Source: Hemileia vastatrix
Lineage: Eukaryota > Basidiomycota > Pucciniomycetes > Pucciniales > Zaghouaniaceae
DNA: 64,000 nucleotides
Direction of reading: 5' to 3'
NCBI GenBank assembly: GCA_030280995.1
Contig: JASXTE010000012.1
Span: forward strand, 13,242,001-13,306,000
Each line of letters starts with the position of its first letter. The stretch's first letter is position 1. This document shows positions 3,295 to 59,345 of this stretch, piece by piece. The position numbers and the translations under genes are program-made. Under the pieces are notes generated by a model. It did no database searches and was not told the origin of the DNA. It saw only the letters and a list, made by a program, of their open reading frames with translations.

Positions 3295-3422
3295 TGTCAG
3301 CCAGGCTATTCCAGGAGTCCAGTAAATGATATGTTAACTTATAAGACCTGAAAGAGGGTGTAAGAATTGTATTTAATGTATATAAATTAATATTTTATTG
3401 CATAATAAAATTATATAAGTAT
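3295..3422 (+). repeat. Element B 5' LTR, left fragment
   Basis: Matches the first 128 bp of the B 3' LTR (from 20494), beginning TGTCAGCCAGGCTATTCC. It ends at the AGTAT where copy A inserted. Confidence 0.93.
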
Positions 3423-4563
3423 TGTCGGCTGGTCGTCTAGAAGAAGGAGAAAAGAGAATAGGGAATGAGAGGAGGAGCAGGAGGAAAGGAGTATAGGCAA
3501 TAAAAAAAATAAAATCTAATAAAATTATTTAATTTATTGAGAGAAAGGCAACGACAAGTGAGCTGAGAAGAAATAACAATTTGGTTTTATAAATATTAAT
3601 ATTATTTAAGTAAGAATTCTGCGCGGCAACCAATATAATTACTATCAGACTTAAAGCAACCTTTAAATTGTTATATAAAATTTTAATTAGAATTTTATTA
3701 CTAATAAAAAGAATATAAACGTAATATAAAAATTGTATTTAAATTGTTGAGTGTATAATAAGTGATAAGGCTACAGGGGATTATCCAAGGCCCTTTTATA
3801 GGCAATGGGTCCTCTGAAGCGCTACTATATCAGTAAATACAATGATTAGAAAGAAATAAAACAAATATATCAAAAAGAGTAAATGAAACATAACAATATA
3901 GAGAAAAACATGAAACAATTAATTAAAAGCCCAATTAAGAATCCAATTTCCCCGCCATTAATCCCCAAATCAGTAAGTGACAATAGTAAATAACTAAACA
4001 AGAGTGGAAACATAGGAACTATGAGAAATATAATTCCCAACAGATGGTCCATCCTGATTAGAGAACATTTTAAGTGAAACAAAAATAATTTGACGCAACA
4101 AAACAATCAATTAATCTCAATTTAGTTCAAATTAATTTATTTGTTTTTTTCTAACACAATTAAGGGTCAAAAGAAGCGTCCTTAATAATTGTTTAGTGTC
4201 ATATGAGAGGTATTAGTTAATATATAAATTTAAGTAATTAATTTAAATATATTATAAATCAAATTTACACTTGTAATTATAATATATGTTTTTTAATTAA
4301 TCAAATATAAATTTATAATTATTAAATATATAAAAATGCGCCATTATTTTTAGAATATATTATATTATGCTCAATTTAATTGTATATAAAAATATATATA
4401 ACCAATAAATTTAATGTAACATTTGTATATAATAAAATTCTTATATAATTTCATTATGTAATAAAATATTAAGTTATATTCATTAAATACAAGTTTTACC
4501 CACTCTTTAAGGTTTTATAATTTATATATCATTTACTGGACTCCTGGAATAGCCTGGCTGACA
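3423..4563 (-). repeat. Copy A 3' LTR
   Basis: 1141 bp. On the plus strand it starts TGTCGGCTGG and ends GGCTGACA. An identical stretch lies at 11461-12601. Confidence 0.95.
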
Positions 4564-4575
4564 CTCCCTCACTCT
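4564..4575 (-). other. Polypurine tract of copy A
   Basis: AGAGTGAGGGAG on the minus strand, directly next to the LTR terminus. The same 12-mer precedes the 3' LTR in B (20482-20493) and C (48688-48699), as expected for the plus-strand priming site of an LTR element. Confidence 0.85.
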
Positions 4576-4598
4576 AAAAAAAAACAATAAAAAAAATG

Positions 4599-7500
4599 CT
4601 AAGATTTTTTCTTTTTGTATTTTTTCAACAGAGCAGGCAGATTTGAAATTTCTTTGCCAGGTATCCATGCATCATGTTCAGATGATTTGTTCTTATATCT
4701 CAATAAATATTCAGTACCTCTTTCAGAAGTGATAATTCTATCATTGAGAATTTTATCAATTTCTGCTGTTTCTGTGACTTCCTGAGGGTTCTTCTTAGGT
4801 CTTCCTCTTCTTTTTGGAAATAAGTCACTGTTGGAAGTATAAGGTTTAAGCAAAGAAATGGGAAAGACAGGATGTTTCCTATCATATGGAGAATACAATA
4901 CAACTTCTACTGCATTATCACCAACCATTCTTTTAACAACAAATGGTCCTACAAAAGGATCTTTTAATTTGTGGTTACCTTGTAAATTGAAATGGACAGT
5001 AGAGATCAACACTTCATCACCCTTGTTAAATGTGTATTCTTTATGGGATTTATCCCATCTTTTCTTTTCATATTCAAATGCTTTATCAATACAACTCTGA
5101 GCATGTTTTCTGCATAGCTGTTGCATTTGCATAAAAGATTTTACACCAGGATGTAGTTCCAACTTAGGTAATTTATTATTGAGAATCTGAGCAGGAGTGT
5201 TTGGGACATAACCTAACCAAAGCTCAAAAGGCTTTTTCTCAGTGACAGAATGAACAGTGCTATTATATGCAAATTCAAGACCAGGCAAAAGAGTGACCCA
5301 ATCATGAGTAAATCTGTCATTGTCTTTATATTCTAAACCAAAGGCACAATACCTTCTAATCATATCTTCCAGAGTTTGAATCATTCTTTCAGCTAGACCA
5401 TCAGTTTGAGGATGGTGAGCTGTAGACAATTTTAACTCACAGCCACAAATATCCATCAAAGAGGTCCAAAACTCAGAAGTGAATTTTGGATCCCTATCAG
5501 AGATAATGGCTTTTGGAAAACCAATAATATTAAACATGTAAGACCACCATAAGAAAGCTAATTCCTTGGTGGATACATCTTTGTGGGTTGGAATAAATTT
5601 GCACATTTTTGTGAATCTATCAACTATTACCCAACAAGAGTTAAAGCTGTCTTTACCTGCAACAGGAAGACCAGTGACAAAATCCATATTAATGATTTGC
5701 CAGGGAGCACTAGGTGCTTCAATATGTTGTAACAACCCTGCTCTTTTACCTGTTAACCTTTTAGATTTTTGGCAGGAATCACAAGATTCAACATATAATT
5801 TTGTGTCTTCAGACATATTAGCCCACCATGCAGTGTTTTTGATTCTAATCAATGTTTTTTCAAGATCAAAATGACCAGCTAATATGTCATCATGACAAAG
5901 TTTGAGGATAGTTTCTTTCATTGAAGGAGGAATAACAATTACATTGGTAAGCTTCCTTCTATAATAAATATAACCATCTTCAATAGAAAACTTTCCTTTA
6001 TTTAAGGCATTTTGGTATTTTGCAGGAAGAGTTTTTATTAATGCTTGAATTGAAGCATTCTTAGGATCATTCAAAATAGTAACTAATTTATTTAAGTCAG
6101 AATCTTTATCATATGAATCCAGTATTAACTGTAATAACTCTTCTTCCATATCAACTATAAATATACCATGTATATGAACAGTGTCATCCTCAGGTACATA
6201 AGCAGGATTGGAGTCATTATTTGGCAAAGGCAATCTGGAGAGCATATCAACATTAGAGTGAACATTTCCAGCTCTGTGTATAATAGTCATCCTTCCTCTG
6301 TATTCCTGAACAGCAAGTTGCCACCTGAACATATGTCTGTTAGGTGTTTTGAGGTTTAAGAGAGATTTCACAGCACTACAGTCAGTTACCAACTCAAATT
6401 TTTGGTCATCCAAGTAGTAATGAAGTTTCTCAAGAGCCCAAACAACTGCTAAGCACTCCAATTGAGTGGCACCATATTTCAATTCACTATTTCTTAAGGT
6501 TCTTGAAATATAACAAATTACAACCTCTGAGGATTTATCATTAATAATTTGCTTTTGGTGAAGGGCAGCACCCAGACCAATAAAGCTTGCATCTGTATAA
6601 AGTACAAATGGCTTGTTAAAATCTGGGAGAGCCAATATAGGGGCTGACATTAAGCAATTTTTCAATGTATTAAAAGCTTTTTGACAGTCATCATTCCAGA
6701 GAAAAGCAACATCTTTTCTGGTTAGTTTTGTAAGAGGCAAGGCTATGACCTGATAATTTTTAATATATTGTCTATAATAGCCACACATACCCAAAAAACT
6801 TTGGATTTCTCTTACAGAAGTTGGTGCTTTCACATTTTGAATGGCAGCAACTTTATTATGGTCTACACAAATTTGTAAGCCTGACACAACATGGCCAAGG
6901 ACTTTCAAAGATTGAAAACCAAATTTACACTTTTTTAAAGATAAGGTCATATTGATTTCATCCATTTTTTGGAAAACTCTATTTAAGTGAATCATATGTT
7001 CATCAAAAGTTTTAGAAAAAACAATAATATCATCAATATAAACCATGAGCCAACCTTCAATAATTTCTTGATGGAAAGTGTTATCCATGACTTTTTGGAA
7101 AACTGAAGGAGCATTTTTAGGGCCAAATGGCATCCTAACATACTTATATATTCCCATATGAGTAGCAATAAGCAAAAAATTTTGAGAATTTTTCTCAACT
7201 GGAACTTGATGATAACCTTTATTACCATCCAGACAACTAATAAATTTTGCACCTTGCAAGGTAGCATGTATTGAATTAATTCTGGGTAAAGGATAAATAT
7301 CATCAACAGTATAAGTATTTAAAGCTCTGTAATCTCCACATAATCTAGCTTTATCTTTTTCATAAGAAATTAAGACTGGGGAGATGACACAATATTTGGG
7401 GGTGACATCCACTTTTTCAATGATATTCATTTTCAATAATGTTTCAATATTATCTTCAATATCTTTTCTTTTTGATGGAGAAGCAGGATATGGTTTTTTC

Positions 7501-10500
7501 TTAAGGGAAGGAGGAATATCACTCAAATTACAGGATAAGGTAATTTTCATCTCTTCCTGAACAATTCCCAAGACATGAGAACCATGAGCAAAAGCCATAG
7601 GGAAAGAGGTAATAGAGGCAACAATAGAATCCTTTTGTTCATTAGTCAAATGATCACCAAAAGAAGCGGTATTTATTTCATGTAATAAATCATCCATTTC
7701 AGTTGTTGTTCTACCTTTACATTGGGTCAGTGAGTTACAAGATTTTAACAAATGCCCAGAAGGTTTAGGAGAAGAAATTTTGAATTTTCTTTTCCCATTC
7801 ATTCCTAAGGTAAAGCAATTATTTGCTGGGTCCAGTTTCACACCAAACATGGTTAAAATATCATTTCCCATAATAAACCAATTGCTCAAATTATCATTTT
7901 TCATGACAACAAACTCACAAATAGCTCTGACAAAACCACCATTATATTTGAAGAATACAGAGGTTTTGTATTTGCCAATAGGGAATAAGGTAGAACCATA
8001 CCCTCTCCATTTTTCAGAAGTTATAGGCAATAATTTACTCAAATATTCCTTATCCACTGAAGCCAAAGCTTTTTCAGATACTACACTTCCTCCAGCACCA
8101 GAATCAAGAACTACATCAACATTTTTACCATTAATGATAACAGGTGCTTTTAAAGGGGATATAGGAATAGAATTGTTAGTAATATCTTTAATTATCTCAG
8201 CATTTTCTACTGAAGATAAATTCAATACACAATCTTCAGATATATTATTTAAATGATGGACATCATGTTCCAACATTAAAACATCTTTAACAGATTCATT
8301 GTCATAGGAGATATTACTTTCACAGTCACTGGAAGAATTATTGACATCAAGTTCAAGTTCATCAGTGTCTTCATTTTGTTCAACAAGATGAATTTTCTTG
8401 TCACAAACATGACCCTTCTGCCACGGTTTGTTACATTTATAACAAGTATTTGTTGCATATTTTTTAGGTGCAACTGGGGCAGAGGGTTTACCAGATTTTT
8501 CTGGGAGCTTTATAGAAGGTTTATTCTGATCATTATAAGATTTACTAAGATAATTCTTTGGTTCATATCTATGGTTGAGTAGTACTTCATTACAGATATT
8601 AATGAAAGAAGAATTTTCCCTTACATGCTCAGTTCTAGCCACAATCAAATCCCTAAGAGAATTTGGTAATTTATACAAAATTTTATCTCTCCAAATATCA
8701 TAATCCATCTTTGGATCAATTGCTCTAAGGATTTTAGTTATTTTCATCAGAAAAACAATGGGCTTTTCAACAGAGGAGGATACATATCTAGTATTCTCAT
8801 ACAGTCTTTGCTGAGCTAACCTGAATTTTGAACCACCAAACTGATTTTCAATCAAGGATTTCCAATCATTCCATGTATAATGATTGTTATCTAAGAGGAC
8901 AGATTCATACCACATCAAGGCTACATTGGAAAATAAAGAAATTAGCTTAGAAACAATTTCCTCATCAGGTAGTTTATAAGATCTCTTTAAATTATCAATT
9001 CTTTGGATAAAGTGTTGCCAATCAGAGGAAGAATCACCATCAAAGGTAGGATATTGGTCTAACTTAGGCCAATTTTTCTGACTACTGGGATGGTCCACTT
9101 TTTGGTTTGAATTATTCATTAGTAATAATTCCTGAAGTTTAGCCAGGTGTTCAGAAATTTCATTATTTACAGAAACAGCTGGTGCATGATTATCACAAGA
9201 TTTTTTGCTAGTAGCAAAAGATTTTACAGACTCATTGTCAGTTTGTTTAATGGTTGGAATATGAGGAAGAAAGGATGAACTTTGTTCAGGTTTTTTCCCT
9301 TTATTTTTATGCAGCTTACTGGCAGAAATCTCATTTAATTCATTATTGATGGTTAAGGTTGAGAACTTTTCCTGTAGGTCAGACACATAGTTTCTTATTC
9401 TTGGAATTTCAGACATCTGGTCATTCACTTTTGCAAGAGATAGAACATTTCTGTCCTCAGAAACTGAGTGTTTGGTACTTAGTGCATGGAAGTCATTCTT
9501 TAGTTTCTTCAACTCATTTTGTAGAGATTTTATTTCATTTTTGAAAGAATAATTTTCCTCAATAAGGGGTTTCAATTCACTCAATGTTTTATGCAGACTG
9601 ATATTTCTATCTGAGATAGCTCTATGGTCACTTCTTATTTGTTTTTGTTGACTAAGAACAATATTCAAGGTTTCTTTGATTTTTAAATAAGCTGTATCTT
9701 GTACAGAAGAACTCACTCTACATTGCAAGTGTAAATTATTTAATCTATCATTTTCATGGATTAACACATCTCTCACATGTTTGTCTTTCACAATATTAAA
9801 ATCAAGGGTATCTTTCAAAATTTCCTCAGAAGTTTTTTCAATTAAGTTATAGATTTCAGGGGGAACAGAATCATTTTTAATTGCAAGAGAAGGATTAATT
9901 AAAGATGTAGAAGTTAAATGTAAAGGTTCATCAAATGACAATTTGCTAATTACATCAATAGGGCTACTAGTTACAGGAAGCTGTCTTTTAACAGGTTTAA
10001 CTGTTCTTTCACCATGTTCAATAATATTACCTGCAGAAGAAGATTTATTAGAAAACATACCCAAGTGACTATCAACCAAATTACTTACCATGGCAGAGGA
10101 GGAAACTTCCCCTGGGACTGGGTTTGGGATTGTGCTTGGGCCTTCTTTCTCCTGCTTTGTTGGTAGGGATGAGGAGGTGGATGGAAATTGGGTGTTCTGG
10201 ATGGGCCAGGCTGATGATGAGGAGGGTGTTGCACATTCTGCTGGTAGTGACTCATTAGATAATCCCATTTCCATTGCTCTACTTCCATAGTATTTGGATT
10301 TTGGATGGTTGAGCTGGGTGGCTGTGAAGGTTGAGCCTGAAATTGAAGCTGATTGGGAGGCAATTGAGGAGGGGCCTGGGCCTGAATCTGGTTCCTGAGT
10401 TCTTGGACCTGATCCCACAATGTGTCTACCTTTGCTTTGTACGTCATATTTTCTGTCTTCAACTCTTTTATATGACTGGAGAGGTTGCTGATTTGTTGTG

Positions 10501-10766
10501 GCAGAGGAAGCTTTTTTATTTTGAAGCCTTTTGGAAGACCTTCTTGAGGCACTAGAGGCTTTACTTCCTTCTGTGGTACTGGGGGAAGGGGGTTTGGTTT
10601 GTTTGCATTTCCTGTCATTTCCACATCCTGCAGTATGAGAATTCTTTGTGTTAGCATAAGATTTTTTATGACCAACTTTAGAAGAACTTACAGTGTCAGC
10701 ATCATAGTCAATTTCTATCTCATCCACTTGCATGTTATCCATTTTTTCTGTCAAATTGTTGGACAT
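4599..10766 (-). CDS. gag-pol: Gag-Pol polyprotein of copy A (2055 codons, intact)
   Basis: One unbroken frame. Order with rough residues: Ser-rich N-terminus (1-225) overlapping ORF1; coiled coil (about 380-440); Ty3-type capsid region (about 565-745, starting near NWPKLDQYPTFDG); zinc knuckle CYKCNKPWQKGHVC (about 773); aspartic protease VVLDSGAGGS (D near 887); reverse transcriptase with RLCGDYRALN and catalytic YIDD (near 1242); RNase H (YTDAS near 1389); integrase His/Cys zinc domain and DDE core (NMD near 1694, SDRD near 1755, AER near 1792); AT-hook KRRGRPKK (1985-1992); chromodomain (about 2003-2050). The chromodomain marks a chromovirus and, by family knowledge, would steer integration to marked chromatin. 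An alternative start is the ATG at 10091, giving 1830 residues that keep every enzymatic domain and begin at the ORF1 stop. Confidence 0.95.
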   Translation of the reverse strand: MSNNLTEKMDNMQVDEIEIDYDADTVSSSKVGHKKSYANTKNSHTAGCGNDRKCKQTKPPSPSTTEGSKASSASRRSSKRLQNKKASSATTNQQPLQSYKRVEDRKYDVQSKGRHIVGSGPRTQEPDSGPGPSSIASQSASISGSTFTATQLNHPKSKYYGSRAMEMGLSNESLPAECATPSSSSAWPIQNTQFPSTSSSLPTKQEKEGPSTIPNPVPGEVSSSAMVSNLVDSHLGMFSNKSSSAGNIIEHGERTVKPVKRQLPVTSSPIDVISKLSFDEPLHLTSTSLINPSLAIKNDSVPPEIYNLIEKTSEEILKDTLDFNIVKDKHVRDVLIHENDRLNNLHLQCRVSSSVQDTAYLKIKETLNIVLSQQKQIRSDHRAISDRNISLHKTLSELKPLIEENYSFKNEIKSLQNELKKLKNDFHALSTKHSVSEDRNVLSLAKVNDQMSEIPRIRNYVSDLQEKFSTLTINNELNEISASKLHKNKGKKPEQSSSFLPHIPTIKQTDNESVKSFATSKKSCDNHAPAVSVNNEISEHLAKLQELLLMNNSNQKVDHPSSQKNWPKLDQYPTFDGDSSSDWQHFIQRIDNLKRSYKLPDEEIVSKLISLFSNVALMWYESVLLDNNHYTWNDWKSLIENQFGGSKFRLAQQRLYENTRYVSSSVEKPIVFLMKITKILRAIDPKMDYDIWRDKILYKLPNSLRDLIVARTEHVRENSSFINICNEVLLNHRYEPKNYLSKSYNDQNKPSIKLPEKSGKPSAPVAPKKYATNTCYKCNKPWQKGHVCDKKIHLVEQNEDTDELELDVNNSSSDCESNISYDNESVKDVLMLEHDVHHLNNISEDCVLNLSSVENAEIIKDITNNSIPISPLKAPVIINGKNVDVVLDSGAGGSVVSEKALASVDKEYLSKLLPITSEKWRGYGSTLFPIGKYKTSVFFKYNGGFVRAICEFVVMKNDNLSNWFIMGNDILTMFGVKLDPANNCFTLGMNGKRKFKISSPKPSGHLLKSCNSLTQCKGRTTTEMDDLLHEINTASFGDHLTNEQKDSIVASITSFPMAFAHGSHVLGIVQEEMKITLSCNLSDIPPSLKKKPYPASPSKRKDIEDNIETLLKMNIIEKVDVTPKYCVISPVLISYEKDKARLCGDYRALNTYTVDDIYPLPRINSIHATLQGAKFISCLDGNKGYHQVPVEKNSQNFLLIATHMGIYKYVRMPFGPKNAPSVFQKVMDNTFHQEIIEGWLMVYIDDIIVFSKTFDEHMIHLNRVFQKMDEINMTLSLKKCKFGFQSLKVLGHVVSGLQICVDHNKVAAIQNVKAPTSVREIQSFLGMCGYYRQYIKNYQVIALPLTKLTRKDVAFLWNDDCQKAFNTLKNCLMSAPILALPDFNKPFVLYTDASFIGLGAALHQKQIINDKSSEVVICYISRTLRNSELKYGATQLECLAVVWALEKLHYYLDDQKFELVTDCSAVKSLLNLKTPNRHMFRWQLAVQEYRGRMTIIHRAGNVHSNVDMLSRLPLPNNDSNPAYVPEDDTVHIHGIFIVDMEEELLQLILDSYDKDSDLNKLVTILNDPKNASIQALIKTLPAKYQNALNKGKFSIEDGYIYYRRKLTNVIVIPPSMKETILKLCHDDILAGHFDLEKTLIRIKNTAWWANMSEDTKLYVESCDSCQKSKRLTGKRAGLLQHIEAPSAPWQIINMDFVTGLPVAGKDSFNSCWVIVDRFTKMCKFIPTHKDVSTKELAFLWWSYMFNIIGFPKAIISDRDPKFTSEFWTSLMDICGCELKLSTAHHPQTDGLAERMIQTLEDMIRRYCAFGLEYKDNDRFTHDWVTLLPGLEFAYNSTVHSVTEKKPFELWLGYVPNTPAQILNNKLPKLELHPGVKSFMQMQQLCRKHAQSCIDKAFEYEKKRWDKSHKEYTFNKGDEVLISTVHFNLQGNHKLKDPFVGPFVVKRMVGDNAVEVVLYSPYDRKHPVFPISLLKPYTSNSDLFPKRRGRPKKNPQEVTETAEIDKILNDRIITSERGTEYLLRYKNKSSEHDAWIPGKEISNLPALLKKYKKKKS
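10085..10766 (-). CDS. ORF1 of copy A: spliced 205-aa protein in a second frame
   Basis: Exon 1 (10766-10692, 25 codons) is shared with gag-pol. A 64-nt intron (10691-10628) removes one base more than a multiple of three, so exon 2 (10627-10085) is read in the other frame. It runs from DVEMTGNANKPNP to GKFPPLPW-stop. The product has a probable coiled coil (ISNLSSHIKELKTEN...TLWDQVQELRNQI), a Gln/Pro-rich stretch, a WKWDYLMSHYQQN block and a basic RRKKAQAQ segment. I recognise no family. Against copies B, C and D this frame is better conserved than the overlapping gag-pol frame. It could be an accessory Gag-like or RNA-binding protein, but function is unknown. Confidence 0.6.
10628..10691 (-). 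other. Predicted 64-nt frame-switching intron in copy A
   Basis: The donor is GTAAGT at 10691, the branch-point-like GCTAAC lies at 10655-10650, and the acceptor is ACTGCAG ending at 10628. The same length and layout occur in B (14369-14432, donor weakened to GTAGGT) and C (42312-42375, GTGAGT...TTCAG). The intron has no stop in the gag-pol frame, so both the spliced and the retained RNA are translatable. Confidence 0.6.
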
Positions 10767-11460
10767 ACTAGTGGGAAGATTAATATTTTACTTTGTACTT
10801 ATAAAAAATAATCAAAGTTAGTCAATAATTTGCTCCAAATAATAAAAAAAATTTTTTAATTAATTAAATTATAGAAAAATTAACTTTCAATATAAAGTAA
10901 TAATTAAAAATTAATTTTTTTAAAAAAAAATGGATTGCAAGTTTAAATTGGGAATAACAAGTTAGTTAATTCAACCAATTAATTACCAATATTAAATATG
11001 GCAATATATTGGGACTAAGCACAATGTACTTTTAAGTCAACCAAAAATTAACAATAATTAATAATAAAAAAAAAAATTAAATTAATAATTCAATTTGTAT
11101 TAATAATAATGTTAATTCTTCTAGGACTAAGAGGATTTAACACTCTATAATGGTCAACTAGGAAAAAAAAATTTTTTAAAAATTGAACACTTACACTCAG
11201 TGAATCAGCAATTAAGCCACAATCACTGTTATTGCAATAAAAATATAGTATTATGAGTGAGAGGCGCAAAGGTGAACTTACTATAGTGATCGAAAAATCA
11301 CTTCAAAATAATATAAAAATTAATATTATATAAACCTAATATGTCGAACCCAAGTTCGAAACACAGTCGCGGCAAAAGTTTCGTTTTGCTAGGTGGTCCG
11401 TGCGTTTTGTCGTTCGTCGCCAGGCTTCGATCGTCGTCGTCGTTTGGAAAGGCCCTCAGT
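10767..11460 (-). other. Leader of copy A between 5' LTR and gag-pol
   Basis: 694 nt of non-coding sequence. Blocks are shared with B, C and D: a GATCACTATAGTAAGT region, TTGCAATAACAGTG, CACTGAGTGTAAGTG, CCTAGTTGACCAT and CTTAGTCCTAGAAG. The first roughly 80 nt after the LTR are CpG-rich (CGACGACGACGATCG...). Directly after the LTR comes ACTGAGGGCCTTTCC (11460-11446), the expected primer-binding position, but it does not start with the usual TGG. Confidence 0.65.
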
Positions 11461-12601
11461 TGTCGGCTGGTCGTCTAGAAGAAGGAGAAAAGAGAATAGG
11501 GAATGAGAGGAGGAGCAGGAGGAAAGGAGTATAGGCAATAAAAAAAATAAAATCTAATAAAATTATTTAATTTATTGAGAGAAAGGCAACGACAAGTGAG
11601 CTGAGAAGAAATAACAATTTGGTTTTATAAATATTAATATTATTTAAGTAAGAATTCTGCGCGGCAACCAATATAATTACTATCAGACTTAAAGCAACCT
11701 TTAAATTGTTATATAAAATTTTAATTAGAATTTTATTACTAATAAAAAGAATATAAACGTAATATAAAAATTGTATTTAAATTGTTGAGTGTATAATAAG
11801 TGATAAGGCTACAGGGGATTATCCAAGGCCCTTTTATAGGCAATGGGTCCTCTGAAGCGCTACTATATCAGTAAATACAATGATTAGAAAGAAATAAAAC
11901 AAATATATCAAAAAGAGTAAATGAAACATAACAATATAGAGAAAAACATGAAACAATTAATTAAAAGCCCAATTAAGAATCCAATTTCCCCGCCATTAAT
12001 CCCCAAATCAGTAAGTGACAATAGTAAATAACTAAACAAGAGTGGAAACATAGGAACTATGAGAAATATAATTCCCAACAGATGGTCCATCCTGATTAGA
12101 GAACATTTTAAGTGAAACAAAAATAATTTGACGCAACAAAACAATCAATTAATCTCAATTTAGTTCAAATTAATTTATTTGTTTTTTTCTAACACAATTA
12201 AGGGTCAAAAGAAGCGTCCTTAATAATTGTTTAGTGTCATATGAGAGGTATTAGTTAATATATAAATTTAAGTAATTAATTTAAATATATTATAAATCAA
12301 ATTTACACTTGTAATTATAATATATGTTTTTTAATTAATCAAATATAAATTTATAATTATTAAATATATAAAAATGCGCCATTATTTTTAGAATATATTA
12401 TATTATGCTCAATTTAATTGTATATAAAAATATATATAACCAATAAATTTAATGTAACATTTGTATATAATAAAATTCTTATATAATTTCATTATGTAAT
12501 AAAATATTAAGTTATATTCATTAAATACAAGTTTTACCCACTCTTTAAGGTTTTATAATTTATATATCATTTACTGGACTCCTGGAATAGCCTGGCTGAC
12601 A
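11461..12601 (-). repeat. Copy A 5' LTR
   Basis: 1141 bp, apparently identical to 3423-4563. It carries the promoter for the minus-strand transcript and is followed by AGTAT, the right target duplication. Confidence 0.95.
11831..11840 (-). promoter_or_regulatory. TATA-type promoter in copy A 5' LTR
   Basis: CCTATAAAAG on the minus strand, about 20 nt downstream of GCGCTTCAGAGG. The pair (CTTCAGA plus CCTATAAAA) recurs at the same LTR position in B and D. C has the variant GGCTATATAAGGG. Confidence 0.65.
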
Positions 12602-12606
12602 AGTAT
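12602..12606. repeat. Right target-site duplication of copy A (AGTAT)
   Basis: AGTAT here and at 3418-3422. The uninterrupted B LTR has it once (near 20617-20621), which proves the nesting. Confidence 0.92.
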
Positions 12607-13604
12607 CTTATTACATATAAGTGTTATATTAATTTTATTGTTTATATAAATTTTTTATACATTTAAATTAAACATAATATATTATATTCTACAAATAATG
12701 GCGCATTTTTTATGTATTTAATAATTATAAATTTATATTTAATTAATCAAAAACATATATTATAATTATAAGTGTAAAATTTACTTATAATATAATTAAA
12801 TTAATTAATTATATTTATATATTAAATATCATTTTTTATAGTATTAAACAATAAATAATGACGCTTCTTTTGACCCATAATTGTGTCAGGAAAAACTAAT
12901 TAATACTAAATTGAAATAAATTACATATTTTGTTGCGTCAGAATATTTTTTGTTTCACTTAAAAATCCTTAAATCAGACTGTACCATCTGTTTTGAATGA
13001 TTTTTCTCATAGTTCCTATGTTCCAGGCTTGTTTAGTTATTCACTATTTTTACTTACTGATTTGGGAATTAATTGTGGGAAAATTGGATTCTTAATTGGG
13101 GTTTTTAATTATTTGTTTCATATTTTTCTCTACATTGTTATGTTTCACTTATTCTTTTAGATTCTTGTTTTATTCTATTATGTTTCTTGTATTTACAAAT
13201 ATAGTAGCGCTTCAGAGGGCCCATCGCCTATAAAAAGGCCTTGGTTAATCCCCTGTAGCCCTATCACTTATTACACACTCAACAATTTAAAGATAAATTT
13301 ATTACGCTTATTATTATTTTTATTAGTATTAAATTCTAATTAAAAATTCTAAATAACAATTTAAAGGTTGCCTTAAGTCTGATAGTAATTATAGTGTTTG
13401 CCGCGCAGAACTCTTACTTCAATAATATTAATATTAATAAACCCAATTTGTTGTCACCTCTCAAATCACTCGTCGTTGCTTTCTCCCAAATAAATTAAAT
13501 AATTTCAATTGTTTTTATTTCTTTTATTTCTACACTATTATCTCCTTCTTGTCCTCCTCTCTTTTCTTCCCTCTTCTCTTATCTCTTCTAGACAACTGAC
13601 CGAC
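12607..13604 (+). repeat. Element B 5' LTR, right fragment
   Basis: Continues the LTR interrupted at 3422 and ends in GACCGACA. It aligns to the rest of the B 3' LTR with only scattered substitutions. Confidence 0.92.
13228..13237 (+). promoter_or_regulatory. TATA-type promoter in element B 5' LTR
   Basis: CTATAAAAAG, downstream of GCGCTTCAGAGGGCCC. This is the same arrangement as in copy A. It now lies downstream of the whole nested copy A. Confidence 0.6.
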
Positions 13605-14293
13605 AATTGGGGGCCTTTCCAAACAACGACGACGATCAAGCCTGGCAACGAATGACAAAACGCATGGACCACCTAGCAAAAACAAAACTTTTGCCGCAAC
13701 TGTGTTTTGAACTTGGGTTCAATTTCTTAGGTTTATAATATATTAATTCTTATATCATTTTGAAGTGATTTTTTGATCACTATAGTAAGTTCACCTTTGC
13801 ACCTCTCACTCATATTACTATATTTTTACTGCAATAACAGTGATTGTGGCTTAATTGCTGATTCACTGAGTGTAAGTGTTCAATTATTATAATTTTTTTT
13901 TCCTAGTTGACCATTATAGAGTGTTAAATCCTCTTAGTCCTAGAAGAATTAACATTTTTTATTAATACAAATTGAATTATTAATTTAATTTTTTTTATTA
14001 ATTATTGTTAATTTTGGTTGACTTATAAGTACATTGTGCTTAGTCCCAAATAAATTGCCATATTTAATATTGGTAATTAATTGGTTGAATTAACTTGATT
14101 GTTATTCCCAATTTAACCTTGCAATCCATTTTTTTTAAAATTAATTTTTTATAATTATTAGTTTATATTGAAAATTTTTTTTTTTCTATAATTTAATTAA
14201 TAAAATTTTTTTTTTATTTGGAGCAATTATTATTGACTAACTTTTATTATTTTTTTTAATAAATAAGAAGTAAATTAAAATCTTCCCACTAGT
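13605..14293 (+). other. Leader of element B
   Basis: Non-coding. It starts ATTGGGGGCCTTTCC at the primer-binding position. It holds the conserved blocks GATCACTATAGTAAGT (13775-13790), GCAATAACAGTG (13831-13842), CACTGAGTGTAAGTG (13864-13878) and CCTAGTTGACCAT (13902-13914). Compared with copy A, many CpG sites here are CpA or TpG. Confidence 0.6.
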
Positions 14294-14975
14294 ATGTCCA
14301 ACAATTTGGCAGAAAAAATGGATAACATGCAAGTGGATGAAATAGAAATTGACTATGATGCTGACACTGTAGGTTCTTCTAAAGTTGGTCATAAAAAATC
14401 TTATGCTAACACAAAGAATTCACATACTGCAGGATGTGGAAATGACAGGAAATGCAAACAAACCAAACCCCCTTCCCCCAGTACCACAGAAGGAAGTAAA
14501 GCCTCTAGTGCCTCAAGAAGGTCTTCCAAAAGGCTTCAAAATAAAAAAGCTTCCTCTGCCACAACAAATCAGCAACCTATCCAGTCATATAAAAGAGTTG
14601 AAGACAGAAAATATGACGTACAAAGCAAAGTTAGACACCTTGTGGGATCAGGTTCAAGAGCTCAGGAACCAGATTCAGGCCCAGGCCCCTCCTCAGTTGC
14701 CTCCCAATCAGCCTCAGTTTCAGGCTCAACCTTCACAGCCACCCAGCTCAACCATCCAAAATCCAAATACTATGGAAGTAGAGCAATGGAAATGGGATTA
14801 TCTAATGAGTCACTACCAACAGAATGTGCAACACCCTCCTCATCATCAGCCTGGCCCATCCAGAACACCCAATTTCCATCCACCTCCTCATCCCTACCAA
14901 CAAGGCAGGAGAAAGAAGGCCCAAGCACAATCCCAAACCCACTCCCAGGGGAAGTTTCCTCCTCTGCCATGGTAA
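14294..14975 (+). CDS. ORF1 of element B: spliced 205-aa protein in a second frame
   Basis: Exon 1 is 14294-14368, the intron 14369-14432 (GTAGGT...GCTAAC...CTGCAG) and exon 2 14433-14975. It differs from the copy A ORF1 at about 4 of 180 exon-2 residues, while the overlapping gag-pol frame differs at about 10. It ends PLPW-TAA, where the TGGTAA overlaps the gag-pol ATG (14969-14971, ATGGTAA). The donor here is weaker than in A. Confidence 0.5.
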
Positions 14976-17900
14976 GTAATTTGGTTGATAGTCACTTGGG
15001 TATGTTCTCTAATAAACCTTCTTCTGCAGGTAATATTATTGAACATGGTGAAAGAACAGTTAAACCTGTTAAAAGAGAGCTTCCTGTAACTAGTAGCCCT
15101 ATTGATGTAATTAGCAAATTGTCATTTGATGAACCTTTACATTTAACTTCTACTTCTTTAATTAATCCTTCTCTTGCAATTAAAAATGATTCTGTTCCCC
15201 CTGAAATCTATACCTTAATTGAAAAAATTTCTGAGGAAATATTGAAAGATAACCTTGATTTTAATATTGTGAAAGACAAACATGTGAGAGATGTGTTAAT
15301 CCATGAAAATGATAGATTAAATAATTTACACTTGCAATGTAAAGTGAGTTCTTCTGTACAAGATACAGCTTATTTAAAAATCAAAGAAACCTTGAATATT
15401 GTTCTTAGTCAACAAAAACAAATAAGAAGTGACCATAGAGCTATCTCAGATAGAAATATCAGTCTACATAAGACCTTGAGTGAATTGAAACCCCTTATTG
15501 AGGAAAATTATTCATTCAAGAATGAAATAAAATCTCTGCAAAATGAGTTTAAGAAGCTAAAAAATGATTTCCATGCACTAAGTACCAAACACTCAGTTTC
15601 TGAGAACAGAAATGTTCTATCTCTTGCAAAAGTAAATGACCAGATGTCTGAAATTCCAAGAATAAGAAACTATGTGTCTGACCTGCAGGAAAAGTTCTCA
15701 AACTTAACCATCAATAATGAATTAAATGAGATTTCTGTAAATAAGCTGCATAAAAATAAAGGGAAAAAACCTGAGCAAAGTTCATCCTTTCTTCCTCATA
15801 TTTCAACCATTAAACAAACTGACAATGAGTCTGTAAAATCTTTTGCTACTAGCAAAAAATCTTGTGATAATCATGTACCAGCTGTTTCTGTAAATAATGA
15901 AATTTCTGAACACCTGGCTAAACTTCAGGAATTATTAAAAATGAATAATTCAAACCAGAAAGTGGACCATCCCAGTAGTCAGAAAAATTGGCCTAAGTTA
16001 GACCAATATCCTACCTTTGATGGTGATTCTTCCTCTGATTGGAAACACTTTATCCAAAGAGTTGATAATTTAAAGAGATCTTATAAACTACCTGATGAGG
16101 AAATTGTTTCTAAGCTAATTTCTTTATTTTCCAATGTAGCCTTGATGTGGTATGAATCTGTTCTTTTAGATAACAATCATTATACATGGAATGATTGGAA
16201 ATCCTTGATTGAAAATCAGTTTGGTGGTTCAAAATTCAGGTTAGCTCAGCAGAGACTGTATGAGAATACTAGATATGTATCCTCCTCTGTTGAAAAGCCC
16301 ATTGTTTTTCTGATGAAAATAACAAAAATCCTTAGAGCAATTGATCCAAAGATGGATTATGATATTTGGAGAGATAAAATCTTGTATAAATTACCAAATT
16401 CTCTTAGGGATTTGATTGTGGCTAGAACTGAGCATGTAAGGGAAAATTCTTCTTTCATTAATATCTGTAATGAAGTACTGCTCAACCATAGATATGAACA
16501 AAAGAATTACCTTGGTAAATCTTATAATGATCACAATAAACCTTCTATAAAGCTCCCAGAAAAATCTGGTAAACCCTCTTCCCCAGTTGCACCTAAAAAA
16601 TATGCAACAAATACTTGTAATAAATGTAACAAACTGTGGCAGAAGGGTCATGTTTGTGACAAGAAAATTCATCTTGTTGAACAAAATGAAGACACTGATG
16701 AAGTTGAACTTGATGTCAATAATTCTTCCAGTGACTGTGAAAGTAATATCTCCTATGACAATGAATCTGTTAAAGATGTTTTAATGTTGGAACATGATGT
16801 CCATTATTTAAATAATATATCTGAAGATTGTGTATTGAATTTATCTTCAGTAGAAAATGCTGAGATAATTAAAGATATCACTAACAATTCTATTCCTATA
16901 TCCCCTTTAAAGGCACCTGTTATCATTAATGGTAAAAATGTTGATGTAGTTCTTGATTCTGGTGCTGGAGGAAGTGTAGTATCTGAAAAAGCTTTGGCTT
17001 CAGTGGATAAGGAATATTTGAGTAAATTATTACCTATAACTTCTGAAAAATGGAGAGGGTATGGTTCTACCTTATTTCCTATTGGCAAATACAAAACCTC
17101 TGTATTCTTCAAATATAATGGTGGTTTTGTCAGAGCTTTTGTGAGTTTGTTGTCATGAAAAATGATAATTTGAGCAATTGGTTTATTATGGGAAATGATA
17201 TTTTAACCATGTTTGGTGTGAAACTGGACCCAGCAAATAATTGCTTTACCTTAGGAATGAATGGGAAAAGAAAATTCAAAATTTCCTCTCCTAGAACTTC
17301 TGGGCATTTGTTGAAATCTTGTAACTCACTGATCCAGTGTAAAGGTAGAAAAACAACTGAAATGGATGATTTATTACATGAAATAAATACCGCTTCTTTT
17401 GGTGATCAGTTGACTAGTGAACAAAAGGATTCTATTGTTGCCTCTATTACCTCTTTCCCTATGGCTTTTGCTCATGGTTCTCATGTCTTGGGAATTGTTC
17501 AGGAAGAGATGAAAATTACCTTATCCTGTAATTTGAGTGATATTCCTCCTTCCCTTAAGAAAAAACCATATCCTGCTTCTCCAACAAAAAGAAAGGATAT
17601 TGAAGATAATATTGAAACATTATTTAAAATGAATATCATTGAGAAAGTGGATGTCACCCCCAAATATTGTGTCATCTCCCCAGTCTTGATTTCTTATGAA
17701 AAAGATAAAGCTAGATTATGTGGAGATTACAGAGCTTTAAATACTTATACTGTTGATGATATTTATCCTTTACCCAGAATTAATTCAATACATGCTACCT
17801 TGCAAGGTGCAAAATTTATTAGTTGTCTGGATGGTAATAAAGGTTATCATCAAATTCCTGTTGAGGAAAATTCTCAAAATTTTTTGCTTATTGCTACTCA

Positions 17901-20459
17901 TATGGGAATATATAAGTATGTTAGGATGCCATTTGGCCCTAAAAATGCTCCTTCAGTTTTCCAGAAAGTCATGGATAACAATTTCCATCAAGAAATTATT
18001 GAAGGTTGGCTCATGGTTTATATTGATGATATTATTGTTTTTTCAAAAACTTTTGATGAACATATGATTCACTTGAATAGAGTCTTCCAAAAAATGGATG
18101 AAATCAATATGAACTTATCTTTAAAAAAGTGTAAATTTGGTTTTCAATCTTTGAAAGTCCTTGGCCATGTTGTGTCAGGCTTACAAATTTGTGTAGACCA
18201 TAATAAAGTTGCTGCCATTCAAAATGTGAAAGCACCAACTTCTGTAAGAGAAATCCAAAGTTTTTTGGGTATGTGTGGCTATTATAGACAATATATTAAA
18301 AATTATCAGGTCATAGCCTTGCCTCTTACAAAACTGACCAGAAAAGATGTTGCTTTTCTCTGGAATAATGACTGTGAAAAGCTTTTGATACATTAAAAAG
18401 TTGCTTAATGACAGCCCCTATATTGGCTCTTCCAGATTTTAACAAGCCATTTGTCCTTTATACAGATGCTAGCTTTATTGGTCTGGGTGCTGCCCTTCAC
18501 CAAAAGCAAATTATTAATGATAAATCCTCAGAGGTTGTAATTTGTTATATTTCAAGAACCTTAAGAAATAGTGAATTGAGATATGGTGCCACTCAATTGG
18601 AGTGCTTAGCAGTTGTTTGGGCTCTTGAGAAACTTCATTACTATTTGGATGACCAAAAATTTGAGTTGGTAACTGACTGTAGTGCTGTGAAGTCTCTTTT
18701 AAACCTCAAGACACCTAACAGACATATGTTCAGGTGGCAACTTGCTGTTCAAGAATACAGAGGAAGGATGACAATTATCCATAGAGCTGGAAATATTCAC
18801 TCTAATGTTGATATGCTCTCCAGATTGCCTCTGCCAAAAAATGACTCAAATCCTGCTTATGTACCTGAAGATGATACTGTTCATATCCATGGTATATTTA
18901 TAGTTGATATGGAAGAGGAGTTATTACAGTTAATACTGGATTCATATGATAAAGATTCTGATTTAAATAAATTGGTTACTATCTTAAATGATCCTAAGAA
19001 TGCTTCAATTCAAGCATTAATAAAAACTCTTCCTGAAAAGTACCAAAATGCTTTAAATAAAGGAAAGTTCTCTATTGAAGATGGTTATATATATTATAGA
19101 AGGAAGCTTACCAATGTAATTGTAATTCCTCCTTCAATGAAAGAAACTATCCTCAAACTTTGTCATGATGACATATTAGCTGGTCATTTTGATCTTGAAA
19201 AAACATTGATTAGAATCAAAAACACTGCATGGTGGGCTAATATGTCTGAAGACACAAAATTATATGTTGAATCTTGTGATTCCTTCCAAAAATCTAAAAG
19301 GTTAACAGGTAAGAGAGCAGGGTTATTACAACATATTGAAACACCTAGTGCTCCCTGGCAAATCATTAATATGGATTTTGTCACTGGTCTTCCTGTTGCA
19401 GGTAAAGACAGCTTTAACTCTTGTTGGGTAATAGTTGATAGATTCACAAAAATGTGCAAATTTATTCCAACCCACAAAGATGTATCCACCAAAGAATTAG
19501 CCTTCTTATGGTGGTCTTACATGTTTAATATTATTGGTTTTCCAAAAGCCATTATCTCTGATAGGGATCCAAAATTCACTTCTGAGTTTTGGACCTCTTT
19601 GATGGATATTTGTGGCTGTGAGTTGAAATTGTCTACAGCTCACCATCCTCAGACTGATGGTCTAGCTGAAAGAATGATTCAAACTCTGGAAGATATGATT
19701 AGAAGGTATTGTGCCTTTGGTTTGGAATATAAAGACAATGACAGATTTACTCATGATTGGGTCACTCTTTTGCCTGGTCTTGAATTTGCATATAATAGCA
19801 CTGTTCATTCTGTTACTGAGAAAAAGCCTTTTGAGCTTTGGTTGGGTTATGTCCCAAATACTCCTGCTCAGATTCTCAACAATAAATTACCTAAGTTGGA
19901 ACTACACCCTGGTGTAAAATCTTTTATGTAAATGCAACAGCTATGCAGAAAACATGCTCAGAGTTGTATTGATAAAGCATTTGAATATGAAAAGAAAAGA
20001 TGGGATAAATCCCATAAAGAATACACATTTAACAAGGGTGATGAAGTGTTGATCTCTACTGTCCATTTCAATTTACAAGGTAACCACAAATTAAAAGATC
20101 CTTTTGTAGGACCATTTTTTGTTAAAAGAATGGTTGGTGATAATGCAGTAGAAGTTGTATTGTATTCTCCATATGATAGGAAACATCCTGTCTTTCCCAT
20201 TTCTTTGCTTAAGCCTTATACTTCCAACAGTGACTTATTTCCAAAAAGAAGAGGAAGACCTAAGAAGAACCCTCAGGAAGTCACAGAAACAGCAGAAATT
20301 GATAAAATTCTCAATGATAGAATTATCACTTCTGAAAGAGGTACTGAATATTTATTGAGATATAAGAACAAATCATCTGAACATGATGCATGGATACCTG
20401 GCAAGGAGATTTTGAATCTGCCTACTCTGTTGAAAAAGTACAAAAAGAAAAAATCTTAG
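14294..20459 (+). pseudogene. gag-pol: Gag-Pol of element B, broken by two frameshifts and a stop
   Basis: Closely related to copy A over its whole length, with the same domain order. The breaks are a 1-bp deletion near 17137 (after the protease, FKYNGGFVRA), a 1-bp deletion near 18375 (end of RT, after WNNDC) and a CAA-to-TAA nonsense codon at 19929-19931 (after integrase). The open pieces are 14294-17158, 17155-18396, 18408-19931 and 19932-20459. Key residues (zinc knuckle, DSGAGG, YIDD, integrase D/D/E, KRRGRPKK and chromodomain) all survive. One integrase zinc-domain cysteine has changed (CDSF instead of CDSC), a likely functional loss. Confidence 0.93.
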
Positions 20460-20481
20460 CATTTTTTTTATTGTTTTTTTT

Positions 20482-20493
20482 AGAGTGAGGGAG
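20482..20493 (+). other. Polypurine tract of element B
   Basis: AGAGTGAGGGAG directly before the 3' LTR, preceded by a T-rich stretch as in A and C. Confidence 0.85.
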
Positions 20494-25824: not shown

Positions 25825-25836
25825 TCCTCCCTCCAA
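25825..25836 (-). other. Polypurine tract of element E
   Basis: TTGGAGGGAGGA on the minus strand directly upstream of the 3' LTR terminus TGTGGTAG. Confidence 0.75.
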
Positions 25837-26489
25837 TCGAGAATGTCCCCATTCTTATAACTTTGCATAAGTGGTTGAGAAATTCCAAAAGAATTATCTT
25901 TTCTAATAAAATAATTTGATAAATTTGTTTTAGCTGGTCTTCTTTTAAATCTTTATAATAAAAACGTTGTTTCTTCTTCTCTGGCTTGATATAACATAAA
26001 ATAAAATAAAATAAATCTTGTGATGATTCCACTACGAGAGCAAGGTTTGAATCCCTTCAGACTCCCATATACCAGTCTTCCTTCTTGTCACAGCATTGAG
26101 AGAGTGGATCTTCCTATGAGCCGAATACTCCTGATTCCAACCTCATAGGGCCCCCCACTGAGCCGAATTCTATGATTCCAATCTCGCCATAAGGTCCTCC
26201 AAGCTTCACACCAAAAAAAATGGCCTAACTATGAGGCACTAAAAAAAATCATTCCCTTAAATCCAACTACCATCCTAACTTCTGATTCCTTCATCACAAT
26301 TTTCAAACTTTGCTATACAGCAAACCCATAAAATACTTTTGCCAGGCTTCCAATAATAATTTTAACTTTAGACCATGTTAAAGCGCCACAAATTTCACCT
26401 AATTAACCATTATGCTTTCTTTAGCATCATCACCACCTAAAGTTTTAACCTCCTAAAGCTATCAGCACCCAATTCCAGAAATAATTGAA

Positions 26490-27185: not shown

Positions 27186-27234
27186 GAAGTAAAATCCCAT
27201 AGGTATTGAGCTCTCCTAGACCCTGTTTCCTGTC

Positions 27235-42236: not shown

Positions 42237-42897
42237 ATGTCTTCCAAACTGAGTGAAACCATGGAAAATTTGAATGTGGATAAAATTGAAATTGATTATG
42301 ATGCTGATACTGTGAGTTCTTCTAAATTTGCACATAAAAAATCTTATGCTAACAAAAAAAATTCACATAATTCAGGATGTGGAAATGATAGGAGAAGTAA
42401 ACAAACCAAACCCCCTTCCCCCAGCACAACAGAAGGAATTAAAGCCTCCAGTACCTCAAGAAGGTCTTCCAAAAGGCTTCAGAATAACAAAACTTCCTCT
42501 GTCCCAGCAAATCAGCAATCTTTCCATTTACATCAAAGAACTGAAGACAGAAAACATGAAATACAAGGTAAAAGTAAGCACCTTGTGGGATCAAGTTCAG
42601 GAAATCAGGACCCAAAATCAGGCCCAGGCCCCTACTCAGTTGCCTCTCAGTCAGCCTCAGTTTCAGGCTCAACCTACTCAGTCCCCCAGCTCCTCAACCC
42701 AAAATTAAAACACTCTACAAGTGGAACAGTGGAAATGGGACTACTTGATGAGCCATTACCAGCAGAATGCTCAACAACCAGCTCAACACCCTGGCCCATC
42801 CAGGACACAAACCTACCATCCATCTCCTCAGCCCCATTCTTATCAGGGAGGCAGAAGAAAGAAGGCCCAGGGGAAGTTTCCTCCTCTGCCATGGTAA
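42237..42897 (+). pseudogene. ORF1 of copy C (spliced second frame, one stop)
   Basis: Exon 1 is 42237-42311, the intron 42312-42375 (GTGAGT...GCTAAC...TTCAG, 64 nt) and exon 2 42376-42897. Its sequence keeps QQISNLS..IKELKTENMKYK, TLWDQVQEIR, VEQWKWDYLMSHYQQN, GRRKKAQ and GKFPPLPW. One in-frame TAA (42706-42708) interrupts it, where copy D has CAA. In the core coiled-coil region about 33 of 41 residues match copy A. The gag-pol frame over the same DNA keeps only about half. Confidence 0.55.
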
Positions 42898-57984: not shown

Positions 57985-58714
57985 ACTGGGAGCCTTTCTG
58001 AATGACAAAAAAGATTTTGGACAATTGACTTGACGGACAGACCACCTTGCGTGAAAAACTCAATTTTTTCTGCAACCGTTTTTCGAACTTGGGTTCAACA
58101 TATTTGGTTTATATAATATTATATTCATATATATTTTAAGGTGATTTTTTGATCACTATAGTAAGTAAACCTTTTTTCCTATAAACTCTATTATTGAATT
58201 TTTATTGCAATAACAGTGCCTTGGCTATTTTGCTGAGTCACTGAGTGTAAGTGATCCATATTTTTTAAATAATTTTTTTTTTCCTAGTTGACCATAATAG
58301 AGTTATTCTCATAGTCCTAGAAGATCATTATTATCTTAAAAAAATTATTAAATTAATTTCTTTTATTTAAATTTTGATATTATTGGTTGACCATAATAGT
58401 ACTCAGTGCTTAGTCCCAATATTACCAATATATTTTTTGTTATTCATTATTTATGGTTGATTTCTTAAACCTTTTTTTTGGTTGGTCCCAAAATATGTAT
58501 TGTTTATTTTTTAACAATAAAATGTGTAGATAAATATTTTTGTTTTACATTATTCTTGTTAATTGAATTATAAACTGAATAAAAATTTATATTAATATTT
58601 TTAAATAATTTGAAGATTTTTTTTTATTATTTCAAAAAATATAAATTTAAATCATTGATTATATCCAATTGATTTTTGTTCCCAGTTTTTATTTCCAGTA
58701 GCTTAACAAGCAGC
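57985..58714 (+). other. Leader of copy D
   Basis: Starts ACTGGGAGCCTTTCT. It keeps GATCACTATAGTAAGT (58151-58166), TTGCAATAACAGTG (58205-58218), CACTGAGTGTAAGTG (58239-58253), CCTAGTTGACCAT (58283-58295) and two more GTTGA...GTCCC repeats, although the rest has diverged. Confidence 0.55.
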
Positions 58715-59345
58715 ATGGATAATATTTATGTTGATGAAATTGATGTGGATGTTGATAATTAATTGCTAGGTTCTTCAAAATTAACTTACAGAAATTCTTC
58801 AGCTGACAAAAAACCTTCAAATTCTTCAAGACATAGAAATGTCAGGAGGAGTGGAAAAACCCCCTCCCCCAACAAATCTGAAAGAAGTAAAGCCTCAAAT
58901 CAGTCAGGAAAATCCTCTAAAGGGTATGAAAATAAAAAAGATTCATCTGGCACAGCAAGTAAACAATCTGTCCAGTCATATAAAAGAGCTGAGAGCAGAA
59001 AACATTAGATAAAAGGCAAAAGTAGACACCCTCTGGGAATAGATTCAGGAGCGTTTAAGTCACAAACACGTTCACCATCCTCCTTTTCCAACTACCCAGC
59101 CTCAGCCTCAGCCTCAGCCCCATCAGGCACACAACTCTTTCCTTCAAAATCAAAACACTCTACAAGTGGAACAATGGGAATGAGACTACCTGATGAGCCA
59201 TTACCAGCAGAATGCACAGCCACCAGCAGCTCAACACCCTGGCCCAACCAGGACACAAACTTACCATCAACCTCCTCAAGCCCATCCTTATCAGTGAGGC
59301 AGAAGAAATAAGGCACAGGGAAAATTTCCTTGCTTGCCATGGTAA
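58715..59345 (+). pseudogene. ORF1 relic of copy D
   Basis: The splice donor is lost, but the second frame is still readable: DIEMSGGVEKPPP, NNLSSHIKELRAEN, KAKVDTLW, QNQNTLQVEQW, DYLMSHYQQNAQ, GRRNKAQGKF and CLPW-TAA, interrupted by about four point stops. Alignable identity in this frame persists even in the oldest copy. Confidence 0.5.

Follow-up and report, generated by a model that had tools for sequence, protein, structure and literature searches.

Two overlapping frames at the start of gag-pol

The window analysed here is a stretch of 64,000 nucleotides (nt) of contig JASXTE010000012.1 of the fungus Hemileia vastatrix, and it holds four copies, A to D, of one Ty3/gypsy retrotransposon family. 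In copy A, the 5' part of the single long gag-pol frame is overlapped by another open reading frame, ORF1, which begins at the same ATG and passes, by way of a small intron, into a different frame. In window coordinates, the features are as follows.

3422-12601, minus strand: copy A, whole element, an intact-looking chromodomain Ty3/gypsy element
11460..12601, minus strand: copy A 5' long terminal repeat (LTR), 100% identical to the 3' LTR
3422..4563, minus strand: copy A 3' LTR, with TG...CA ends and a 5-bp target duplication
4599..10766, minus strand: copy A gag-pol frame, 2055 codons, domains by Pfam scan
10692..10766, minus strand: copy A exon 1, 25 codons common to ORF1 and gag-pol
10628..10691, minus strand: copy A intron 1, 64 nt, GTAAGT...GCTAAC...CAG, without a stop in the gag-pol frame
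10085..10627, minus strand: copy A exon 2, 180 ORF1 codons and TAA, the other frame being gag-pol
10089..10091, minus strand: copy A ATG in the gag-pol frame, context GCCATGG, overlapping the ORF1 stop as ATGGTAA
10031..10088, minus strand: copy A intron 2, 58 nt, GTAAGT...CTAAT...CTGCAG, within the start of ORF2
14294..14975, plus strand: copy B ORF1 region (exon 1 14294-14368, intron 1 14369-14432, exon 2 14433-14975)
14972-15029, plus strand: copy B intron 2
42237..42897, plus strand: copy C ORF1 region (exon 1 42237-42311, intron 1 42312-42375, exon 2 42376-42897)
58691..59345, plus strand: copy D, decayed ORF1 region, lacking the ATG and with stops in both frames

Intron 1 is 64 nt long and in A, B and C is found 75 nt downstream of the ATG (GTAAGT/GTAGGT/GTGAGT...GCTAAC...CAG), in agreement with the coordinates and motifs of the initial annotation of this DNA, which had seen it join 25 gag codons to another frame. 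The ORF1 product has 205 residues in copies A and B, while copy C has one nonsense codon in ORF1 and another stop further downstream in gag-pol. That annotation also held that even the decayed copy D keeps the ORF1 motifs. They are indeed still recognisable, but D is broken in both frames and has lost both splice sites (CTAGGT...AAG). Intron 2 (10088-10031) and the ATG at 10091-10089 over the ORF1 stop are additional features; this ATG is a possible restart codon of Gag-Pol, and CATGGTAAG is present in 73 of 80 loci.

The genome searched for further copies has 748 Mb. The 150 scored matches to the ORF1 frame, out of 17,918 first-look candidates, are all 100% identical (rounded), and a pattern made of exon 1 and the 5' splice site of intron 1 occurs at 2,995 places (control 0). 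Intron 1 keeps its GT..AG in 100 of 104 aligned rows, which represent 103 copies because locus L031 and window copy C are the same; the intron 1 phase count leaves out L068, L072, L089 and L099, where the intron is not 64 nt in the alignment. Although copy D itself lost both sites, GT..AG is found in 8 of the 11 rows of the D family, whose branch motif is mostly GCTGAC, versus GCTAAC elsewhere. Intron 2 has GT..AG and a length of 58 nt in all 82 of the 82 rows examined; L075 and L077 were left out of these rows and of the tree. In both of these loci ORF1 stops partway, to be followed by later pol sequence in L075 and by other sequence in L077.

A record of splicing in processed copies

The exon-exon junction expected from removal of intron 1, searched as a 24-nt pattern, is present at 18 places in the genome (15 exact, 2 with one mismatch, 1 with two mismatches; control 0). 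Seventeen of these are element copies that align with exactly 64 nt absent, as the earlier prediction of a spliced intron 1 implied. The two-mismatch place, L118, was rejected as a processed copy since it does not match the element. Intron 2 is also absent from 8 of the 17 copies, the other 9 lacking intron 1 only. The spliced junction of intron 2 was found at 28 places (19 exact, 6 with one mismatch, 3 with two; control 0), 7 of which coincide with doubly spliced copies, and six of the eight doubly spliced copies match this junction exactly. The state of intron 1 was covered for 8 of these 28 places. At C502:27791559-27792158, an ORF1 frame including 20 intron-1 codons (100%) adjoins an intron 2 junction (C502:27791546-27791569), coordinates which support the view that this copy lost intron 2 only.

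Copies without introns are A-like, B-like or L080-like, and both splice forms occur in each group. On the exon-2 tree of 119 tips, intron loss requires 10 parsimony changes, a figure that is soft because many tips are nearly identical; it indicates that the intron-less copies arose by repeated events. Two near-duplicate pairs, L114/L115 and L116/L117, lie about 8 kb apart. In the doubly spliced copy L119 (L107/L119), pol is continuous to the 3' LTR with no block absent, so that the spliced RNA was otherwise full length, and no further intron was seen in pol in this one copy followed.

RNAs lacking intron 1, or both introns, have thus been copied back into the genome, which means that the two introns are removed in vivo at the predicted sites. 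DNA deletion was rejected as a general cause, the same GT..AG-bounded pieces of 64 and 58 nt being absent in several subfamilies; at intron 2, which has GTAA in common with the next exon, a rare deletion instead of splicing is possible for a single copy. Since the second intron is also spliced, there must be at least three RNA forms, and probably four. Intron-less copies make up about 0.6% of all (17 versus 2,995), which suggests that they rarely found lineages. They constitute a ready-made record of splicing, through which the switch between products and any sterilising effect of intron loss become testable.

Constraint on the two frames

Of the exon 2 differences between copies A and B, 4 alter an amino acid of ORF1 and 10 an amino acid of gag-pol, as had been estimated by eye, and exon 1 adds one. 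The ratio of nonsynonymous to synonymous substitution rates (dN/dS) of the ORF1 frame is 0.15 for A-B and 0.23 for A-D, and lies between 0.13 and 0.46 over 12 pairs, all below 1, against 0.81-3.22 in the overlapping gag-pol frame. This per-frame comparison, which the initial annotation had put forward as a check, bears out its proposal that ORF1 is a selected protein. The pairs internal to the window (A-B, A-D) carry the weight, because most other pairs involve loci chosen by ORF1 similarity; L001-L030, picked for identical ORF1 and therefore biased in their variant counts, were excluded from dN/dS.

The distribution of differences over codon positions points the same way. Counted in exon 2 at gag-pol positions 1/2/3 (positions 3/1/2 of the ORF1 codons), the differences number 47/20/23 for A-C and 8/2/1 for A-B. 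Past the ATGGTAA, the A-C differences at gag-pol positions 1/2/3 become 30/25/65. In A-C and A-L032 alike, differences thus concentrate at the third positions of ORF1 as far as its stop and at those of gag-pol from there on. In exon 1, where the frame is shared, the A-C differences (5/3/11) favour the third position.

The gag-pol frame opposite ORF1 is constrained in another manner. Exon 2 of copy A has 0 stops in this frame and 11 in the third one, while under shuffling of synonymous ORF1 codons the gag-pol frame acquires 7.1 stops on average and is open in 0 of 20,000 trials. Stop-risk junctions, at which an ORF1 codon ending in T would precede a codon starting with AA, AG or GA, end in T in 0 of 46 cases in this exon, compared to 42 of 133 other junctions (p=5e-7). 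Such avoidance reaches p<1e-4 in each of the 12 sequences tested (of 84), and a pol-frame control shows no bias (276/611 versus 553/1,219, p=0.49). Under 90 random A-to-C-like substitutions the frame stays open in 0.4% of trials. A chimera test gave no contrast for the six pairs without D, every chimera being open there. Codon shuffling, stop avoidance and dN/dS together rule out that ORF1 is a chance open frame.

Some results pull the other way. The codon-position switch is absent in A-L068 (66/49/71, p=0.12), a pair in which the ORF2 portion is disturbed, and in A-B the differences past the ORF1 stop are too few for a switch to show (2/4/7, p=0.23). Loci L031-L080 and L091-L100 were found through similarity to part of ORF1, a bias toward conserved ORF1. 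In the old C family, exon 2 variants shared by at least two copies are synonymous in ORF1 in 20 of 53 cases (21% expected), a modest excess, and in the gag-pol frame in 13 of 53 (25% expected); these counts leave out L052, L068, L069, L072, L075, L077, L080 and the repeated copy C (L031). Gag-pol stops among the same variants (3/53 versus 5.5% expected) are close to a neutral share, so that the stop-free constraint is visible between subfamilies and not among ageing copies. Finally, conservative changes in the gag-pol frame are significant (<0.05) in 4 of 8 pairs, and conservation of its amino acids is slight at most.

On balance, the comparison of copies shows that ORF1 is a conserved protein-coding frame under selection at the protein level, and that stops are kept out of the gag-pol frame across the ORF1 exon while the amino acids of that frame drift. 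That ORF1 is coding and that its introns are spliced may, jointly, be taken as close to certain. The 180 codons would then be an instance of dual coding, tentatively proposed here as part of a multi-tier splicing scheme (see below), in which selection would act on the sequence of one frame and, in the other, mainly on its openness.

A different purpose for the open frame, possible but rather doubtful as a full account, would be to spare the genomic RNA from nonsense-mediated decay, the overlap peptide itself having no function. Avoidance of stops while amino acids drift is what this would predict, and for the nematode element Cer1 the authors state that its stop-free gag-pol is not an expected target of such decay (PMC10309623). 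On the other hand, the excess of conservative changes in 4 of 8 pairs hints at a weak constraint on the peptide. Protection from decay is in any case compatible with the scheme preferred here, and the two are not exclusive.

Proposed RNA forms and their products

The unspliced RNA would serve both as genome and as the message for Gag-Pol, whose translation would start at the first ATG and cross the overlap without a stop. With intron 1 removed, the frame would shift and translation from that first ATG would give ORF1, ending in TGG-TAA; in this RNA ORF1 is predicted to end with PLPW-stop at CCATGGTAA, where the strong-context ATG stands in the gag-pol frame. As long as intron 2 is kept, the ORF1 stop overlaps this ATG (AUGGUAA), which could restart Gag-Pol. 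With both introns out, the ORF1 stop would be rebuilt, because intron 2 and the next exon both begin with GTAA, and the restart frame would be broken, leaving an ORF1-only message. If intron 2 alone were removed, the overlap peptide would terminate some 20 residues further on, and a third protein, an overlap peptide of about 225 residues, may be released from such an RNA.

ORF1 is very probably a spliced accessory gene of an abundant chromodomain Ty3/gypsy element, a single RNA being read as Gag-Pol or as ORF1 according to its splicing. We propose more tentatively a retrovirus-like, multi-tier arrangement, with unspliced RNA giving genome and Gag-Pol, intron-1-spliced RNA giving ORF1 and then restarted Gag-Pol, and doubly spliced RNA giving ORF1 alone, ORF1 itself being a new regulator similar to Rev or CERV. 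The Gag-Pol fusion of 2055 residues is a possible product, and Gag-Pol may also start at the ATG over the ORF1 stop. The initial annotation had envisaged a toggle between ORF1 and this fusion by splicing of one intron. Conservation of the open gag-pol frame through the overlap supports the toggle; a second intron is also spliced, and a restart is possible.

According to a different and unlikely scenario, ORF1 is always translated first and Gag-Pol arises solely by stop-restart at 10091-10089, the upstream open frame being a by-product and the 2055-residue protein never being made. It would account for the fact that gag-pol amino-acid constraint begins at this very ATG in A-C and A-L032, for the favourable context and conservation of the ATG, and for the existence of RNAs spliced at intron 1 only (9 of the 17 processed copies). 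It leaves unexplained why the upstream gag-pol frame, which restart does not need, is stop-free far beyond chance; moreover, the retention of intron 1 at 2,995 places, compared with 17 from which it is absent, means that the unspliced form must matter.

The ORF1 protein and its likely role

The predicted ORF1 protein starts with an acidic stretch and contains a coiled coil, another conserved helix (WKWDYLMSHYQQN), an RRKK motif and Q/P-rich regions. The AlphaFold model of the exon-2 product consists mostly of one helix (residues 42-83; predicted local distance difference test, pLDDT, of 86-93 by block over residues 41-80), and this long helix fits the coiled coil; structure prediction of the 205-residue product had been suggested as a check in the initial annotation. 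The whole model has a mean pLDDT of 64 and a predicted template modelling score of 0.26, and the rest of ORF1 outside the helices, predicted with low confidence, is probably disordered. Pfam returns only weak coil matches to ORF1, of the bZIP and TSC22 kinds, the bZIP_1 zipper being under the curated cut-off, and no match to PDB sequences was found at E<=1.

The closest precedent for this architecture is CERV, encoded by Cer1, a Ty3/gypsy element of Caenorhabditis. Exons 1-3 of CERV are in the gag frame and exon 4 is in a unique frame, the protein carries a leucine zipper and KRKK, and Cer1 gag-pol has no internal stop (PMC10309623). CERV has 517 residues, is made from a 5-exon RNA of 2.4 kb, and is required for export of the unspliced genomic RNA (PMC10309623, PMC3315495). 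ORF1 resembles CERV in that a spliced RNA would supply the Gag N-terminus in frame and then an other-frame exon, in its zipper-like coil with a basic motif, and in the lack of obvious homology beyond its own group; the element resembles Cer1 in having gag-pol as one long stop-free frame. Unlike CERV, ORF1 has 205 residues, its introns of 64 and 58 nt lie at the 5' end of gag-pol, and pol is retained in the spliced RNA. Unlike Cer1, the host element is fungal and bears a chromodomain, and ORF1 is known from sequence.

Complex retroviruses have unspliced, singly spliced and doubly spliced RNA forms, and their Rev, Tat and Rex proteins are regulators made from spliced RNA. ORF1 is like Rev and Rex in being a putative small regulator from a spliced RNA that overlaps other genes (in part after PMC10309623). 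It differs from them in belonging to another virus family and in that no arginine-rich RNA-binding stretch or clear export signal was seen among its residues.

By analogy with CERV and human immunodeficiency virus Rev, ORF1 could be an oligomeric protein made from spliced RNA, able to bind RNA of the element and to promote the export or build-up of unspliced molecules; this is our best, though provisional, guess. Several points weigh against it. The regulatory role depends on the likeness to CERV, and a single weak export-signal-like pattern, at residues 5-14, is all that was seen of that kind. The second helix is modelled with moderate confidence (block pLDDT 63-70). No homologue of ORF1 was found at E<=0.01 in a large protein database, in a search that detects only relatives with common short words and similar length; likewise, no homology to CERV appeared at E<=0.01 in these searches, in which CERV was not aligned directly. 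Translation of ORF1, of the 2055-residue fusion and of the restart product is itself predicted from the reading frames.

Could ORF1 instead be a structural partner, nucleocapsid-like or a scaffold packaged with Gag, with splicing or restart setting the ratio of ORF1 to Gag-Pol? A coiled coil, RRKK and Q/P-rich disorder would suit an RNA-binding oligomer, and the doubly spliced RNA behind L107/L119 kept pol, was reverse transcribed and integrated. Gag, however, already possesses a segment that is conserved in other Gags, and a cysteine motif which we take to be zinc-knuckle-like, and production from spliced RNA is typical of regulators. We therefore consider a structural role improbable and prefer to see in ORF1 a regulator acting on unspliced RNA. 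That ORF1 and its GT..AG sites are both chance artefacts, for which the absence of homologues and nothing else speaks, is wholly implausible in view of the 17 intron-less copies against a control of 0, the dN/dS values and the codon-position switch.

Other known arrangements are less close. Plant Ty3/gypsy elements of the Ogre/Tat group have an intron within the coding region and an extra ORF1, the Ogre intron lying between protease and reverse transcriptase (RT) and the Ogre ORF1 upstream of gag. Here, by contrast, both introns are within the overlap at the start of gag, and no block corresponding to an Ogre-type protease-RT intron is absent between gag and the 3' LTR in the doubly spliced copy followed. 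An env of errantivirus or retrovirus type, a membrane glycoprotein whose spliced gene is situated downstream of pol, was rejected: ORF1 lies inside the start of gag, gag-pol ends at 4599, adjoining the 3' LTR at 4563, and Pfam finds coil matches only.

The initial annotation knew of no Ty3/gypsy protein like ORF1. Protein searches agree, but CERV is a precedent in architecture and likely role. As far as the searches reach, the ORF1 protein and the dual-frame constraint are new, and by titles and the beginnings of abstracts no report of a spliced frame overlapping gag in a fungal Ty3/gypsy element was found among the entries listed from the open-licence literature. To our knowledge, spliced exporters of an unspliced LTR-element genome are experimentally established in complex retroviruses and one nematode element only. 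A fungal case without common sequence, if true, would mean that the export strategy arose a further time, in an element whose intron-bearing sites number about 3,000 in one genome. Annotation that keeps only the longest frame would overlook such genes.

The element, its relatives and its neighbours

Copy A is a chromovirus, with the order RT-RNase H-integrase-C-terminal chromodomain, TG...CA LTRs and a short target duplication. Its LTRs are 1,142 bp each, with ends TGTC...GACA. Pfam recognises in gag-pol an aspartic protease (weak), RT, RNase H, integrase and chromodomain, in the order RVT_1, RT_RNaseH, Integrase_H2C2, rve (under cut-off) and Chromo. Among the matches listed, the RT-RNase H region is 44-51% identical to Puccinia striiformis proteins (P0002, P0011), and the closest named relatives by identity also include a Sporobolomyces protein (47%) and a Rhodotorula protein (P0047, 44%); the top-scoring match listed is a long pseudoscorpion protein, 38% identical. 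The closest relatives by identity indicate that the host is probably a rust or an allied fungus.

In these Pucciniomycotina Ty3/gypsy relatives (P0002, P0011, P0047), compared as proteins alone, there is no ORF1 among the proteins. The Gag-Pol proteins P0004, P0008, P0009, P0011, P0016, P0032 and P0051 have long low-complexity N-terminal extensions rich in S, P, R and Q; P0004, P0008 and P0032 are metagenome proteins and P0011 is from Puccinia, and in these four the extension is disordered. The N-terminus of P0032 includes an acidic stretch, DEDLLDYEDP, reminiscent of exon 1; a search of viral contigs with P0032 gave nothing. Such extensions of related Gag-Pols may hide similar overlapping genes.

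Within the window (3407-12620), the 5' LTR of copy B carries copy A inserted in the opposite orientation, and the flanks of copy A, minus the 5-bp duplication, rejoin to match the uninterrupted 3' LTR of copy B. The families are mosaic (window 3422-21620; loci L069 and L080): the LTRs of A and B are 83-84% alike and their coding regions about 97%. In L080, exon 1 is nearer A/B, exon 2 lies between A and C, and ORF2 is near C; in copy D, ORF2 is closer to A than D's exon 2 is. Four ORF1 copies on C103 are spaced by exactly 8,017 bases (4381285, 4389302, 4397319, 4405336) and three on C194 by 8,136 bases; they are probably tandem arrays of whole elements with LTRs in common.

A second Ty3/gypsy-like element occupies 24728-36668 of the window. 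It has two overlapping frames of 870 and 1423 codons, with protease in the first and RT, RNase H and integrase in the second, and gave no chromodomain match at E<=0.01. Tandem repeats of 47 bp (...TTTATCCTC.TTGCGGAGG...) lie at 28249-28577, over the end of its pol frame.

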